DNA of 64,000 nucleotides from Planctomycetaceae bacterium (GTDB taxonomy: Bacteria; Planctomycetota; Planctomycetia; Planctomycetales; Planctomycetaceae): the NCBI GenBank assembly GCA_028284885.1, contig JANQQW010000022.1:1-64000 (forward strand), given 5' to 3'. The position numbers were made by a program, and so were the translations under genes. The notes under the pieces are model-generated. The model was not told the origin of the DNA. It made no database searches and saw nothing but the letters and a program-made list of their open reading frames with translations. Below, piece by piece: positions 294-48,366 of this stretch. The number at the start of each line of letters is the position of its first letter. Positions within the stretch are counted from its first letter, which is position 1.

Positions 294-1835
294 CTAGTGG
301 AAGCTGATCGAGTCGAGGTCGTCCTCGTTGAGGCCCTCGAGCGGCAGCGGACGGAAGACGGGAACGAACTCCGGGGGTGGCGTCGCCGAGAGGACGGCCG
401 GCAACGTCCGTGACGTCGCCGGAACCAGCTTCGCCATCCAGTTCTGGTTGAACAGGTCCCAGTCGGTGGGCCAGCCGTCCCTGTGGTGAATCCAGTCGAC
501 CGTCCCGTCGACGCGGACGACTCGCGTGGCCCACGGACAGCAGCGGTGCCGACGCGCCGGGACGAACACCGTCACCTGGGCGAAGGCCATCGTGTCGACG
601 CCGTCCCGGTCGAGCGGGTTCTGGAACACACCGCGGGACTGTTCGGAGATGTGGTTCCAGTACGAGACGCCGACATAGGTGTGGTCACGGTCGAGCACCT
701 CGTTCGTGGGCAGGGTCGTCCAGTCGCGGCGGAGCACGTGTGGCAGGTTCGTGTACCGGAACTCGTCCTCCAGCATCCCGGAGAGCTCGGACCGGGTCGC
801 GGCCCGCATCATGTCGATGTAGCCCGACATCTTCGCCGTCTCGGCCCCACGCCACCGCGGCACCTGGCCGTGGAAACTCGCGAACCCGAAGTACGGGCCC
901 ATCCAGAACTGCGTCCAGTCCTCGAGGTACGTGCGGGCGAGGCTTCCGCGCCGGCTGCGGGCCAACTGGACGTAGTAGTCGCTGCCGTCCGGGTTGCTGT
1001 CGTCCGGTCGGTCTGGGCCGAACGGCGAGGGATCGACGGCGGGAATCGTCCGGGTCAACGGGTCCGCCTCGTTGTTCCCGGCGAGCGGCAACGGCTCGAC
1101 GGTGTGGGCCCGCCACATGACGGCCGTCAGTGGTACGCCGCCGTGCTGCTCCACCCAGCGGTCGTCGCTGCCGTCGAAGCGACCCGCGATTTCGCTGGCC
1201 GCCACCTGGGCGAGGGCGGGCGTCGTCCGTACCAGCGACCGCTGGAACTGCGGAATCGGCAGGTCGAACTGCTCGTCCGACTGGCCGAGCACCGACTCGA
1301 AGGATCCCCGGAACCGACTCGCGTGGTCGCGTGAGACCTGGGCGTACGCCTCGACGATCTGTCGTTCGTGCGGCAGCTTGGCTCGGATGGCGCGGGCAAG
1401 GCGGGAAAACTTGTCGACGCCGGAGACGTTGGCCGCATTCTCCATCGCGTCGGCCATCGCCCCCCATTCGGCGAGCACCGGCTCGGTCAACAGCCGGAAG
1501 TCGTTGTTCGTGTTGGACGCGACCCGCATGTAGGCGGTCAGCGCGAAGGACTCGCTGAGCAGGTGGTTCGTGAAGGCCAACGAGTTCATGCCTCGGGCGA
1601 CGACGACTCCGCCGGAATAGGCCGCGGCGTCGGCCGAGTTCTGCATGCGGGCCCGGTCGTCCACGTGGCGGGCGACGTTCACGATCATCCCCAAGATCAC
1701 CGTGAACATGAGCGCGACGAAAACCGTCAGCAGGCTGATCACGCCCCGCTCGTCCCGGTGCAGCCGCCGCGGCAGATCGCGCAGCGACTCGAGCAGCCGG
1801 TCGGCCGTTCGCTGGTTCGGTTGTCGGTCCGGCAT
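294..1835 (-). CDS. TadG-like Flp pilus assembly protein
   Basis: 513 residues. The amino end has the TadG/TadE layout: a basic segment with DERG at about 28-31, one hydrophobic helix at about 32-53, then QNSADAAA (65-72), a motif typical of the Tad_N region of TadG-like proteins. The remaining ~430 residues form a large extracytoplasmic domain rich in Trp and Tyr that I do not recognise; no von Willebrand A domain is evident. It lies between two TadE-like genes and downstream of a prepilin peptidase, so a role in a Tad/Flp secretion pilus on the cell surface is the best inference. Spacing to neighbours is 9-11 bases, consistent with an operon. Confidence 0.7.
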   Translation of the reverse strand: MPDRQPNQRTADRLLESLRDLPRRLHRDERGVISLLTVFVALMFTVILGMIVNVARHVDDRARMQNSADAAAYSGGVVVARGMNSLAFTNHLLSESFALTAYMRVASNTNNDFRLLTEPVLAEWGAMADAMENAANVSGVDKFSRLARAIRAKLPHERQIVEAYAQVSRDHASRFRGSFESVLGQSDEQFDLPIPQFQRSLVRTTPALAQVAASEIAGRFDGSDDRWVEQHGGVPLTAVMWRAHTVEPLPLAGNNEADPLTRTIPAVDPSPFGPDRPDDSNPDGSDYYVQLARSRRGSLARTYLEDWTQFWMGPYFGFASFHGQVPRWRGAETAKMSGYIDMMRAATRSELSGMLEDEFRYTNLPHVLRRDWTTLPTNEVLDRDHTYVGVSYWNHISEQSRGVFQNPLDRDGVDTMAFAQVTVFVPARRHRCCPWATRVVRVDGTVDWIHHRDGWPTDWDLFNQNWMAKLVPATSRTLPAVLSATPPPEFVPVFRPLPLEGLNEDDLDSISFH

Positions 1836-1844
1836 GGCCGAGAC

Positions 1845-2828
1845 TCAGTCGAGGTCGTGGAATCGAACGGGCTTCATGCCCTCGTTGGTGATCGTCGTCG
1901 AAGCGGACAGCAGCACGATCGGCTGCCCCGCGTCACCTGTCTCCGCGTCGAGCCAGTGCGGCGGGAGTTGACGCAGAACGCGTTGCGGCAGGCTCCTCCA
2001 GCCCGACAACCGCCCCGCCAGCATCCGCCCCGCCCCGCTGATCAACGCGTAGCGGTGGACGACGTGCACGGTGATCGCGTCCTCCCAGCCGACCTCGCTC
2101 GGGTCGAAGACGACCTCCGGGTCGGGGTGGGTCCGCGGGTTGTAGGTGCGCGGCCCGTCGACGGTCGCGTCGCGTGTGTCCCGCCACTCGACGACGACGA
2201 ACGTGTGATGGTCGCTGTAGACCACCTTGTTGACGATCCGCCGGTCGGTCGCCCCGTTCTCGCGGGAACTGGGAACCAGCCGGGGGTAGACGAGCCGGGC
2301 GACGTCGAGCGCCCGCGCCCCCCGAACCGAAGGGGCCGGCAGGCCGTAGGACCGCGACGGCGAGACTCCGGCACACGCCATCACGGCCGCCATGCGGATT
2401 CGTGCGAGTTTCTCGCTGTTCGTCCGCGCGGACTCGTCGATGCCGATCGTCATGACGTACTGGTCGAGGTCGAACGACTCGGACGGCACGAGGGCGACGC
2501 GGTTCATCGGCTCGAAGTCGTCGTCGAGGTGCGCCGGGATCCAGACCGAGGCGGACCGGGCTCCGGCGAACGACGCGTGGTTCACGACCATCATGCCGAC
2601 CAGAATCTGACTGATCTGCACGATGAAGACCGTGATCGTCATGAAGATCGGCAGCACGAGCACGAACGCGAGGCTCTGCACGCCGCCCCGCTCGCAGCGG
2701 TGCAGTTCGAGCAGGCGTCGCCAGTCGAACCGCACGGGGCCGATCCGCGAGAGCAGCAACAGAACAGCGAACCCGACACCGAGTGCGACGAGGGCGGGCG
2801 TGCAACTCTCGAGCAGTTGGCGATGCAC
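1845..2828 (-). CDS. TadE/TadG-like membrane protein
   Basis: 327 residues with an unusual amino end: a first hydrophobic segment at about 10-27, then an Arg/Cys-rich stretch, then a second hydrophobic segment at about 51-80 that looks like the TadE helix (preceded by CERGG). The rest is extracytoplasmic and unrecognised. Two membrane segments instead of one would put both termini outside, or make the first an uncleaved anchor. It sits 9 bases upstream of the TadG-like gene and 25 bases downstream of the prepilin peptidase gene, so it is likely co-transcribed with the Tad pilus genes. Confidence 0.6.
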   Translation of the reverse strand: MHRQLLESCTPALVALGVGFAVLLLLSRIGPVRFDWRRLLELHRCERGGVQSLAFVLVLPIFMTITVFIVQISQILVGMMVVNHASFAGARSASVWIPAHLDDDFEPMNRVALVPSESFDLDQYVMTIGIDESARTNSEKLARIRMAAVMACAGVSPSRSYGLPAPSVRGARALDVARLVYPRLVPSSRENGATDRRIVNKVVYSDHHTFVVVEWRDTRDATVDGPRTYNPRTHPDPEVVFDPSEVGWEDAITVHVVHRYALISGAGRMLAGRLSGWRSLPQRVLRQLPPHWLDAETGDAGQPIVLLSASTTITNEGMKPVRFHDLD

Positions 2829-2853
2829 GTCCCACTCTCCTTTCCGCCACGCG

Positions 2854-3420
2854 TTACGTGAGCACTCGCGTCCACATCTGTATGCCGACGGCCAGCAACG
2901 CCGCCAACGCGAGGAACAGCTCCTGTCCGAGGACGGCTCGGTCCTCCTCCGCCATCGGCATCTGCCGCCCGAGGCGCAGCACTTCCATGCCCCTGCGGAG
3001 ACTCCGCCGCACCAGATCGACGACGCCCAACTGCCAGATCAGGATGCCCAGCCCGATCACGGCGGCGACGACGAACGTCCACAGCATCGCCTCGAGACCG
3101 TGGTCGAGGCCGAGGAACGCTCCCGTCATCGCCAGCAGTTTCACGTCACCACCTCCCACCCCGAAGAAGACGAGGCAGACCACCATCAGGGCACCGCAGG
3201 TGAGGAAGCCCCAGAACCCGTGCATCAACCCCTCGAACGTGGCCTGCGTCACCGGCAGTTCGGCCGAGGCCCGCCCTGCTCCCAGAACGGCGTTCAGGAC
3301 CAGACCGACCACGATGCCGGGGTAGGTCAGCCAGTTCGGGATCGTCTGTCGCCGAGCGTCCGTCATCGTGGCGACGCACATGAACGGCAACAGCACGACG
3401 TACTGCCAAACGCCCGTCAC
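2854..3420 (-). CDS. Prepilin peptidase (TadV/CpaA-type, peptidase A24)
   Basis: 188 residues, almost entirely hydrophobic, with the two conserved aspartates of type IV prepilin peptidases: Asp21 in TDARRQTIPN and Asp92 in GGGDVKLL. The length suits the short TadV/CpaA subfamily, which lacks the methylase half of PilD. It would cleave the leader of the Flp-type pilins at the inner membrane. The GTG start lies two bases after the stop of the pilin gene at 3423, indicating translational coupling between substrate and processing enzyme. Confidence 0.85.
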   Translation of the reverse strand: MTGVWQYVVLLPFMCVATMTDARRQTIPNWLTYPGIVVGLVLNAVLGAGRASAELPVTQATFEGLMHGFWGFLTCGALMVVCLVFFGVGGGDVKLLAMTGAFLGLDHGLEAMLWTFVVAAVIGLGILIWQLGVVDLVRRSLRRGMEVLRLGRQMPMAEEDRAVLGQELFLALAALLAVGIQMWTRVLT

Positions 3421-45327: not shown

Positions 45328-45882
45328 CTACTCGATGAGTGCAAGCGAGCGGACCTCGAACTTCATCGAGGAGATGTCCAGCCCCAGCGTGCTCAACAGG
45401 TTCGGGACGGGCGTTCCGTTGCGGCTGGCGAGGACACAGACGGAGACGGAGATCCGCCCCTGCGTGGCAGACGGAAAGAAGGCGTCGGCCGGGACCACGC
45501 AACTGGGAACGTTCGTCGTGTCCCCTCGGATCAACGCCGGGGCGGTCGGCTGCGTGATCGTCGGATCGCCTGCACGCCGCAACTTGACGTCGATCCGCGC
45601 CCCGCCGTTTGCAGACAGATCCAAACCGTGCACGAGGAGGAACTGCTCGACGACCTCCTCGGCCTCGTCCCCGACCAGAGTGTCGTTCGTCGTCGCGGCG
45701 GCCACCTTTGCTGCCTCGCGTGCCGCCTCGACGGCAGCGGCCTGAACGGTCTGGTGGACCGTCATCGCGATCAGGAACTCGATCGCCGCGACGAACAGGA
45801 TCACGACCACCATCAGGGCGACGATGAACTCCAGCAGAACGACGCCGTGTCGCCGTCCGGTCTTGGCGTTCCGCCGAATCAC
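45328..45882 (-). CDS. TadE-like pilus assembly protein
   Basis: 184 residues. The amino end RRHGVVLLEFIVALMVVVIL is a TadE helix with Glu near its start, followed by an Ala-rich helical segment and a beta-rich domain with two cysteines (PSCVVP, VSVCVL) likely to form a disulphide. The next gene on the other strand (46103) encodes a related protein with the same cysteine layout, so this looks like a diverged duplicate. Part of a second Tad set in the window. Confidence 0.75.
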   Translation of the reverse strand: MIRRNAKTGRRHGVVLLEFIVALMVVVILFVAAIEFLIAMTVHQTVQAAAVEAAREAAKVAAATTNDTLVGDEAEEVVEQFLLVHGLDLSANGGARIDVKLRRAGDPTITQPTAPALIRGDTTNVPSCVVPADAFFPSATQGRISVSVCVLASRNGTPVPNLLSTLGLDISSMKFEVRSLALIE

Positions 45883-46102
45883 GATCTACTCCGCTGGTGG
45901 CATGTATCCCCACCGAATCCCAGCGCATCCGTTGGGAAGCGCTGGGACGGCTGGGGCCGGTTCGTCTCCGTTTCCGACGGGAGAAGCACGTCACGTGCCA
46001 CCTCGCGGACATTGTCGGGCCGGCTGCCGTGCCGCCAGTCGGGAGCGGAACGGGAAATGCAGCGTCAGCCGCCCTGTCACCCGACCTCCCCAAGGACCGA
46101 TG

Positions 46103-46627
46103 ATGTCACCCACTTCGCGGCCTCCCCACGCGACCGGCCGCCGTTCGCGTTCCGGGGTGATCGTCTTGGAGCTGATCCTGGGCGTGATGGTCGGACTGGT
46201 GCTGATCGTCGCCGTCGTCGAGTTCGGACTGCTGGTGGCCAACTACCAGCACGTGGTGCAGACGACCCAGTCCGTGGCCCGGTTCGCCTCCGAGGTGCCC
46301 GCCAACGGCCTGAACAGCATCGGCGAGACCCAGACCGTCACGAACGAGGCCCGGGACCTCGCCGACGACCTGCTCGCGGGCACAGGCTTGCCCACGAGCG
46401 CAACGGTGGGAGTCCACCTGCAGCACACGGTCGGCCCCACCGACTTCGGGGCGGAGGCCGGCACATGTCCCCTGGCTGTGGACCCGACCCAGCCGGACGA
46501 CACCGTGCGTGTCAGCGTCTGTGTCTCTGCCGATCGACTCGCGCCCGACCTGTTGAGCACGCTCGGCTTCACGCTGCAGGGTCGCACGGTGCAGTTCACC
46601 GTCACGGTGGCCCACGACAACCCTTGA
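46103..46627 (+). CDS. TadE-like pilus assembly protein, divergent paralogue
   Basis: 174 residues; two adjacent ATG codons (46100, 46103) are possible, and the second has the better distance from AAGGA. SGVIVLELILGVMVGLVLIV is the TadE helix, and the paired cysteines (GTCPLAV, VSVCVSA) and ending LLSTLGFTLQGRTVQF parallel the TadE gene on the opposite strand (LLSTLGLDISS). Twenty bases separate it from the TadG-like propeller gene downstream. Confidence 0.78.
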   Translation: MSPTSRPPHATGRRSRSGVIVLELILGVMVGLVLIVAVVEFGLLVANYQHVVQTTQSVARFASEVPANGLNSIGETQTVTNEARDLADDLLAGTGLPTSATVGVHLQHTVGPTDFGAEAGTCPLAVDPTQPDDTVRVSVCVSADRLAPDLLSTLGFTLQGRTVQFTVTVAHDNP

Positions 46628-46647: not shown

Positions 46648-48366
46648 ATGCAACCACTGAAGCGGCCCGGGAACGACAAACGACGTCGCGCGGACCAGCG
46701 ACGACGACGGAGCGGCTTCGTGTTCCTGCTCGTCGTCGGCGGGCTAGCCGTCTTCGTGGTCGCGTTCCTGTTCGTCCTCCGAATCGCGCTCACCTACGTC
46801 GTGCGACAGCAGCTCGAGGAGGCCGTGAAGGCGGGCGCCGTGGCAGGGGCCAAGGAGTGGTCGCGAAACGGCTCGACGACCAGTTCCGTCCGGACGCGGG
46901 CGAGGGACGTGGCCGAGGCGAACACGCTGATGCTGGGCTCGGTCACGGTTCCCCTCAACGAGAACCTCGGAAACGCGTTCGGCAACCTCGACGTGAACGC
47001 CGAAGGGATCGTGCTGGGGATCGCGAGCGGCGAGCCGACGTCACTCGAGTTCCAGACCAACCAGGCCAACAACCCGGCATTCGCCGCCGGAACCGGGGAG
47101 TTCGCAGCCCCGGTCACGACTCTGCTCGGCGGGAGCCCGACGAACCTGACGCGAGCCATCGCCGCAGGGGACTTCGACAACGACAATGTCACGGACGTCG
47201 TCATCGCGATCCGGTCGACGAACGAGGTGCGCGTGTTCCTCGGCGACGGGGCCGGGGCGTTCGCGCTCTCCGCGACGTTGTCCGCGCCGGGGCAGCCGCA
47301 GACCCCGGCCGTCGCCGACTTCGACGGAGACGGGAACCTCGACTTCGTCGTTACGCGGCTCACCGACGACGACGTGACCTGCTTCCGGGGCAACGGCGAC
47401 GGCACCTCCACGGACTTCGGCTACAGCCTGCCGACGAGCGTCTACCCGAGCCCCACGTCGGTCGCGATCGGCGACTTCGACAACGACACGAATCCCGACT
47501 TCGTCCTGGTCGCGGCCGACAACGACCAGGTCCAGGTCTTCCTCGGAATCGGCAACGGGCAGTTCAACGCCGCGCTGAACGTGCCGCCCACGGTCAGCAA
47601 CAACCCCGCGACCGGTGTCCCGTTCGCGATCACGGTGGCCGACTTCGACCAGGACGGCAACGACGACTGGGCGGTGACCAATCGGACCGAGAACCAGGTG
47701 CACGTCTACCTGGGCAACGGACTTCCGGTCAACCAGCTGGCCTTCGCCCCCGCCGCCAGCTCGCCGTACAACGTCGGTGCGAGCCCCAGGTCCATCGCCA
47801 CCGGCGACTTCGAAACGGCCGGGGGGGCTCCGGACCTGATCACCGGCAACTTCACCGACGGAACGGTCACGCGGTTGCAGAACGCCCTCCCAGCAGGCTT
47901 CAACCGGACGGACATCTCAGTGGGCGGGCCCGGCGCGAACACTCGTGGAGTGGACGTGGCCGACTTCAACGGCGACGGCGACCAAGACTGGGTCGCCGTC
48001 AACCAGGCGTTGAACACGCGTCGCGTCTTCCTCGGTGACGGGGCGGGGGGCTTCTCGCCCGCACCGGTCATCGCTCACATCAACGGTCCGATGTCGGTCG
48101 TCGCGGTCGACGTCGACGGCAGGTTCGGCGCCGACTTCATCTCCGTGGAGCAGTTCGACCCTCCACTCGACCGCCAGTTCTCGACATTCTTGAACCTCGG
48201 TGCCGGGGACCGGGCGGTTCGGCTGAAACGCACCGTCAGCTTCAACCTGTTCGACGACGTCTTCGGGCTGAACCTGCCGCCGGTGTCGGTCTCGGTCGAG
48301 GCAACCGCTCGCGTGCGCAAGGGGGACGAGGCCCGTGCCGTCCGCGTGGACGTGTTCACGCCGTAG
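46648..48366 (+). CDS. TadG-like membrane protein carrying an FG-GAP seven-bladed propeller
   Basis: 572 residues from the ATG at 46648; the frame is open far upstream, but that part overlaps the TadE gene and is not protein-like. A basic lead and one membrane helix (about 24-46, FVFLLVVGGLAVFVVAFLFV) are followed by QLEEAVKAGAVAGA, the TadG-like start. From about 165 to 505 there are seven FG-GAP/VCBS units with motifs such as GDFDNDNVTD, ADFDGDGNLD, GDFDNDTNPD and ADFNGDGDQD, i.e. calcium-binding blades. A TadG-like tail (VSVSVEATARVRKG) closes the protein. Predicted pilus-associated adhesin-like protein. Confidence 0.8.
   Translation: MQPLKRPGNDKRRRADQRRRRSGFVFLLVVGGLAVFVVAFLFVLRIALTYVVRQQLEEAVKAGAVAGAKEWSRNGSTTSSVRTRARDVAEANTLMLGSVTVPLNENLGNAFGNLDVNAEGIVLGIASGEPTSLEFQTNQANNPAFAAGTGEFAAPVTTLLGGSPTNLTRAIAAGDFDNDNVTDVVIAIRSTNEVRVFLGDGAGAFALSATLSAPGQPQTPAVADFDGDGNLDFVVTRLTDDDVTCFRGNGDGTSTDFGYSLPTSVYPSPTSVAIGDFDNDTNPDFVLVAADNDQVQVFLGIGNGQFNAALNVPPTVSNNPATGVPFAITVADFDQDGNDDWAVTNRTENQVHVYLGNGLPVNQLAFAPAASSPYNVGASPRSIATGDFETAGGAPDLITGNFTDGTVTRLQNALPAGFNRTDISVGGPGANTRGVDVADFNGDGDQDWVAVNQALNTRRVFLGDGAGGFSPAPVIAHINGPMSVVAVDVDGRFGADFISVEQFDPPLDRQFSTFLNLGAGDRAVRLKRTVSFNLFDDVFGLNLPPVSVSVEATARVRKGDEARAVRVDVFTP

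Follow-up and report, generated by a model that had tools for sequence, protein, structure and literature searches.

A propeller head inserted into the core of a TadG-like protein, a probable tip minor pilin of a planctomycete Tad pilus

Modular pilus tips and a proposed planctomycete counterpart

Trimers of TadE/F/G-like proteins with variable distal domains were modelled in 2025 at the tip of the Myxococcus Tad pilus, and genetic evidence gives these tip proteins a role in predation (PMC12075869). In the Kil Tip complexes of Myxococcus xanthus (KilL/KilM/KilN), three TadE/F/G-like minor pilins are co-encoded and the largest bears a variable head, with heads differing among sets (PMC12075869). 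CpaL, a minor pilin of the Caulobacter crescentus Tad pilus, is headed by a von Willebrand A (vWA) domain that follows its pilin module (PMC12607857). Head grafting likewise occurs in type IV pili, as PilB of Streptococcus sanguinis shows; PilB and other modular type IV pilins are defined by an N-methylation motif and have their module linked at the end (PMC8179133). PilY1/PilC, the type IVa tip adhesin, is a non-pilin that docks on minor pilins; its propeller has seven blades, including a calcium blade of the form Dx[DN]xDG (PMC3123361, PMC8179133). Integrin alpha propellers and bacterial FG-GAP proteins share seven blades and D-rich calcium loops, and a Cage motif marks the integrin-type blades (PMC3192720).

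Here we describe a protein of 572 aa, encoded at 46648–48366 on the plus strand of a planctomycete window (the whole stretch of DNA analysed, 64,000 nucleotides), in which an FG-GAP propeller lies inside a TadG-like core. The marker families DUF1501, DUF1549/DUF1553, PSCyt1 and DUF1559 point to a planctomycete as the source of the DNA. Synteny and head variation define, as in the Kil complexes, a trio of putative minor pilins encoded together, of which the largest bears a variable head. Whereas Kil heads are C-terminal and include one domain without a PDB relative, the head here lies inside the core and in another phylum; the Kil Tip paper never uses the word "propeller" (PMC12075869). Like CpaL, the protein couples a pilin-like module to a head with a metal site, but that head is an FG-GAP propeller within the module rather than a vWA domain after it (PMC12607857). 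FG-GAP is not named among the modular type IV pilin examples consulted in PMC8179133. Like PilY1, the protein has a seven-bladed propeller with calcium-type loops, but here the propeller belongs to the putative minor pilin itself (PMC3123361, PMC8179133); Pfam finds no Neisseria_PilC domain (PF05567) in the 572-aa protein.

A first-pass annotation of this DNA had called the propeller an integrin-like ligand-binding module. It shares the seven blades and D-rich loops of integrin alpha but is of the bacterial FG-GAP_3/VCBS type (PMC3192720). A motif scan found no strict integrin Cage motif in it, and we therefore rejected membership of the integrin type and consider the earlier label too strong. 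Our literature search, incomplete in coverage, found no paper that joins FG-GAP with TadG or with a minor pilin. The suggestion that the architecture had not been described thus holds for this exact form in the literature searched, but not for the wider idea, since variable Tad-tip heads are already published.

A TadG-like core interrupted by a propeller

The gene is an open, intact reading frame whose GC by codon position (0.66/0.47/0.90) has a coding pattern, alike in core, propeller and tail. Its product begins with a basic leader, MQPLKRPGNDKRRRADQRRRRSG (46648–46716), with a predicted prepilin-peptidase cut after Gly23. The leader–helix junction, here RRRRSG/FVFLLVVGG, is conserved in the family and combines a prepilin-type leader, a Gly cut site and a hydrophobic helix. 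Next come the helix and the TadG-like core's first half (residues 24–147; 46717–47088), then the propeller (about residues 148–519; 47089–48204, with approximate edges) and the second half of the core (residues 518–572; 48199–48363), all on the plus strand.

Two flank profiles were built from 66 relatives, with the protein itself left out to avoid circularity. Residues 12–108 matched the TadG-like family at E=2.8e-16 and residues 518–571 at E=2.5e-7; the best of 10,000 shuffled controls reached 0.11. Because both flanks match profiles built without the protein's own sequence, the propeller is an insertion within a TadG-like core. The fusion noted earlier, with TadG-like parts on either side of an FG-GAP propeller, is confirmed as real by the family HMMs and Pfam. 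Most members tested of the family of N-terminal-part relatives reach Pfam Tad (PF13400) above cut-off. The 572-aa protein itself reaches no Tad or TadE cut-off in Pfam or NCBIfam, its TIGR03816 match (2.2e-5) falling below the cut-off.

Relatives of about 200 aa have merely a short loop at the propeller position, and others carry inserts of roughly 200–300 aa at about the same place; the inserts tested contain no known domain. These short-loop and other-insert relatives indicate that the propeller was inserted into a pre-existing core. The first-pass annotation had located it where TadG proteins usually hold a vWA domain. Planctomycete vWA-TadGs, however, place vWA after a complete core, whereas the propeller lies within the core, and we therefore rejected replacement in a vWA slot. 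Pfam and NCBIfam detect no vWA domain in the 572-aa protein.

Pfam FG-GAP_3 matches seven stretches of the protein (E=1.4e-36), far above chance, with blade loops beginning at residues 175, 224, 276, 332, 387, 439 and 488. A calcium-loop motif count in Python, stricter than Pfam and used for counting alone, found a complete D-x-[DN]-x-[DN]-x-x-x-D loop in five of the seven blades (all on the plus strand): DFDNDNVTD in blade 1 (residue 175; 47170–47196), DFDGDGNLD in blade 2 (residue 224; 47317–47343), DFDNDTNPD in blade 3 (residue 276; 47473–47499), DFDQDGNDD in blade 4 (residue 332; 47641–47667) and DFNGDGDQD in blade 6 (residue 439; 47962–47988). The plus-strand loops of blade 5 (DFETAGGAPD, residue 387; 47806–47835) and blade 7 (DVDGRFGAD, residue 488; 48109–48135) are degenerate and lack the strict motif. 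The seven calcium-type units proposed earlier thus stand as seven units, but with an intact calcium loop in five rather than all seven; judged from these loops, calcium binding in up to five blades is plausible. The earlier limits were residues 165–505. The strand GEFAAPVTTLL (about residues 150–160) looks like the outer strand closing the last blade, and since the repeat register reads it so, the true span is probably a little wider, about 148–519.

AlphaFold2 predicted a seven-bladed propeller, as the first-pass annotation had anticipated, with strands through residues 167–502 and a pLDDT mostly of 75–90 in this block; exactly how the ring closes, and where blade 7 has its outer strand, is our own placement. 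The model has a helix at residues 10–73, a pLDDT below 50 at residues 79–165 and 504–572, and a mean pLDDT of 65. Its input was an 11-row alignment whose rows were FG-GAP proteins, not TadG relatives; the model is therefore fair support for the propeller fold and silent on the core, and the composition of the alignment may lie behind the poorly modelled core. Foldseek against the PDB matched propellers of BBSome subunits, CRTAC1, KICSTOR, aldos-2-ulose dehydratase and integrin alpha-V, and phmmer against PDB sequences matched nothing.

The gene set, its heads and its neighbours

Relatives were sought with the N-terminus, since whole-protein searching was swamped by ordinary FG-GAP proteins. 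Counts cover 170 genomes of the family and samples of about 400 each from the class and the phylum, and refer to 70 distinct members, some with short flanks; the genus of the window's organism is represented by one genome. Whole-protein searches returned two distant FG-GAP proteins from genome contigs and none from viral contigs.

The TadG-like gene is the third in a conserved set of divergent TadE, TadE and TadG. Directly upstream, ending 20 bp before it, lies a TadE-like partner (46103–46627, plus strand, with a predicted start) with Glu at +5 (GVIVLE). Its Pfam TadE match (0.0049) is below cut-off; the assignment draws on synteny and on a family HMM (1.1e-63, with its own sequence in the seed). 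The divergent partner (45328–45882, minus strand), also with Glu at +5 (GVVLLE), matches Pfam TadE above cut-off (6.6e-6) and is syntenic. By its position, the intergenic region at 45883–46102 presumably holds the promoters of the set. A TadE-like gene stands upstream on the same strand, mostly adjacent, in 64 of the 68 relatives with enough upstream sequence, and a divergent TadE is present in 21 of the 27 loci having more than 3.5 kb upstream.

With cut sites assigned by an automatic finder, the +5 residue after the leader was Trp in 65 of 73 TadG-like proteins and Glu in 105 of 117 TadE-like proteins; the 572-aa protein has Leu there, not the family Trp. GspK, the topmost pseudopilin of the type II system, also lacks Glu5, and the same lack supports, without proving, a tip position for the TadG-like subunit.

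Heads vary across the set, from none or an unknown insert to FG-GAP, YWTD and YCF48. A large insert is present in 36 of the 70 members and lacking in 34, and a search of these relatives for TadG plus FG-GAP retrieved a single FG-GAP member in 70, the 46648–48366 protein itself. At L053 (G051:C23; 457–1929, minus strand), a TadG-like protein bears an LDL-receptor-type YWTD propeller after its core (PF00058, 3.8e-23). TadE-like partners from two genera (G042 and G004) carry a YCF48/BNR propeller (PF14870, 3e-19 and 1.6e-13; L098 9854–11584 and L153 2011–3417, both on the minus strand). In several TadE partners, a tail of about 130 aa looks by eye like an Ig or PKD fold, but Pfam names no domain there. 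The window's genome is itself rich in FG-GAP units, with 46 matches spread over several ORFs; these are possible propeller donors.

Most interesting is the pattern itself: a single three-gene set has been fitted with three different propellers, which suggests that these bacteria change pilus grip by exchanging heads. We offer a broader idea tentatively: the planctomycete Tad tip set may have plug-in sites that take unrelated ready-made propellers, so that specificity would evolve by whole-propeller swaps, an independent counterpart of PilY1. Such sites would accommodate FG-GAP within the TadG core, YWTD behind it and YCF48/BNR on a TadE partner.

Three genomes (G064, G073 and G081) from another family of the class have the set inside a Tad locus, about 6–10 kb from TadA. 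These loci hold RcpC, prepilin peptidase, TadA, TadB and TadC, with a secretin in G064 and G081. Within the window's own family, the divergent TadE has a prepilin peptidase beside it in G006, in G058 and in five genomes belonging to a single genus. A secretin is near the set in G058, G003, G024 and G036, and TadABC is near it in G011. The first-pass annotation had named a lack of Tad linkage in relatives as counter-evidence; the linkage is present in several of them, so this objection does not arise. In the window's genome and many relatives, the set is isolated from tad machinery genes; this genome retains two TadABC sets, on contigs 233 and 251.

Another Tad-type group stands at the start of the window (297–3420, minus strand), with Pfam matches to Tad PF13400 (297–1835), TadE (1848–2828) and type IV leader peptidase (2857–3420). 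In Tad loci of another family, two conserved neighbouring ORFs of about 405 and 526 aa lie next to the divergent TadE (L101 11294–14085, minus strand; L099 6959–9804, plus strand), the larger without a Pfam match. In one genus of that family, a sulfatase-family gene (PF00884; L101 15850–17298, plus strand) lies between the TadE-like and TadG-like genes.

Proposed role at the pilus tip

We propose, with a probability of roughly two in three, that the 572-aa protein serves a Tad (type IVc) pilus as a modular minor pilin, with its propeller head displayed at the tip. Prepilin peptidase would cut the leader behind Gly23, and the TadG-like helix would pack against the helices of the two adjacently encoded TadE-like partners, the three proteins together capping the pilus. 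The TadG-like subunit, without the Glu+5 that both partners retain, would be topmost. Plugged into a core loop with its two ends meeting, the propeller would be displayed at the extremity, where it would hold calcium in up to five blades and bind a ligand on a surface; a glycan or protein of the substrate or host cell is the probable target. Adhesion dependent on calcium is plausible. The first-pass annotation had put the adhesion head at the base of the pilus; TadE/F/G proteins are now modelled at the tip (PMC12075869, PMC12607857), which is the likelier location.

This tip-pilin reading is favoured by the TadG-like flanks, the upstream TadE, the Tad-locus linkage in relatives, the +5 pattern, the head variation, the propeller model and the precedents. 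The three-gene set, the insertion, the tad linkage and the swapping of heads among relatives are supported directly here, and modelling supports the propeller fold; cleavage, trimer assembly, tip position, calcium binding and adhesion are what we infer. The reading is weakened by the separation of the set from the tad machinery in this genome, by the Leu at +5, by the failure to reach a Tad or TadE cut-off, and by the low confidence of the modelled core. Taken as a whole, the earlier interpretation is partly supported.

A tip minor pilin might instead use its propeller as a mechanosensor or assembly clamp, with calcium serving folding and pilus stability. There are parallels in CpaL, a vWA-headed minor pilin that affects surface sensing and piliation (PMC12607857), and in PilY1, whose calcium governs pilus assembly and motility (PMC3123361). 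However, the 34 of 70 family members that lack a large insert show a large head to be dispensable for assembly as such, and heads vary between relatives, as expected of ligand-binding parts; we consider a mechanical role rather unlikely. We judge it improbable that the TadG-like protein has left the pilus and now acts, with its TadE-like partners, as a membrane-anchored envelope receptor or matrix-binding protein. The isolation of the set in this genome and many relatives would fit such a departure, as would the abundance of FG-GAP proteins as common surface proteins in these genomes, but the prepilin-type junction and the Glu5 pattern are conserved, several relatives have the set within or next to a Tad locus, and two TadABC sets are kept in the genome.

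An assembly or fusion artefact would explain why this is the sole FG-GAP member among 70, found in a draft genome of 399 contigs in which FG-GAP proteins abound (46 matches). Yet the core runs on in frame beyond the propeller at either end, codon-position GC is alike in all three parts, and other inserts occur at about the same point in relatives. A join made by chance would not bring back the core's second half, and we regard an artefact as extremely improbable.

In our best reading, then, a propeller head on a Tad tip minor pilin extends the 2025 concept of the adaptable Tad tip. If the tip-pilin reading is true, that idea would reach a further phylum and take in propellers, a fold that type IVa pili have through PilY1. 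To our knowledge, little is known of how planctomycete pili choose their targets, and a conserved tip set with swappable heads would provide concrete candidates for binding tests.
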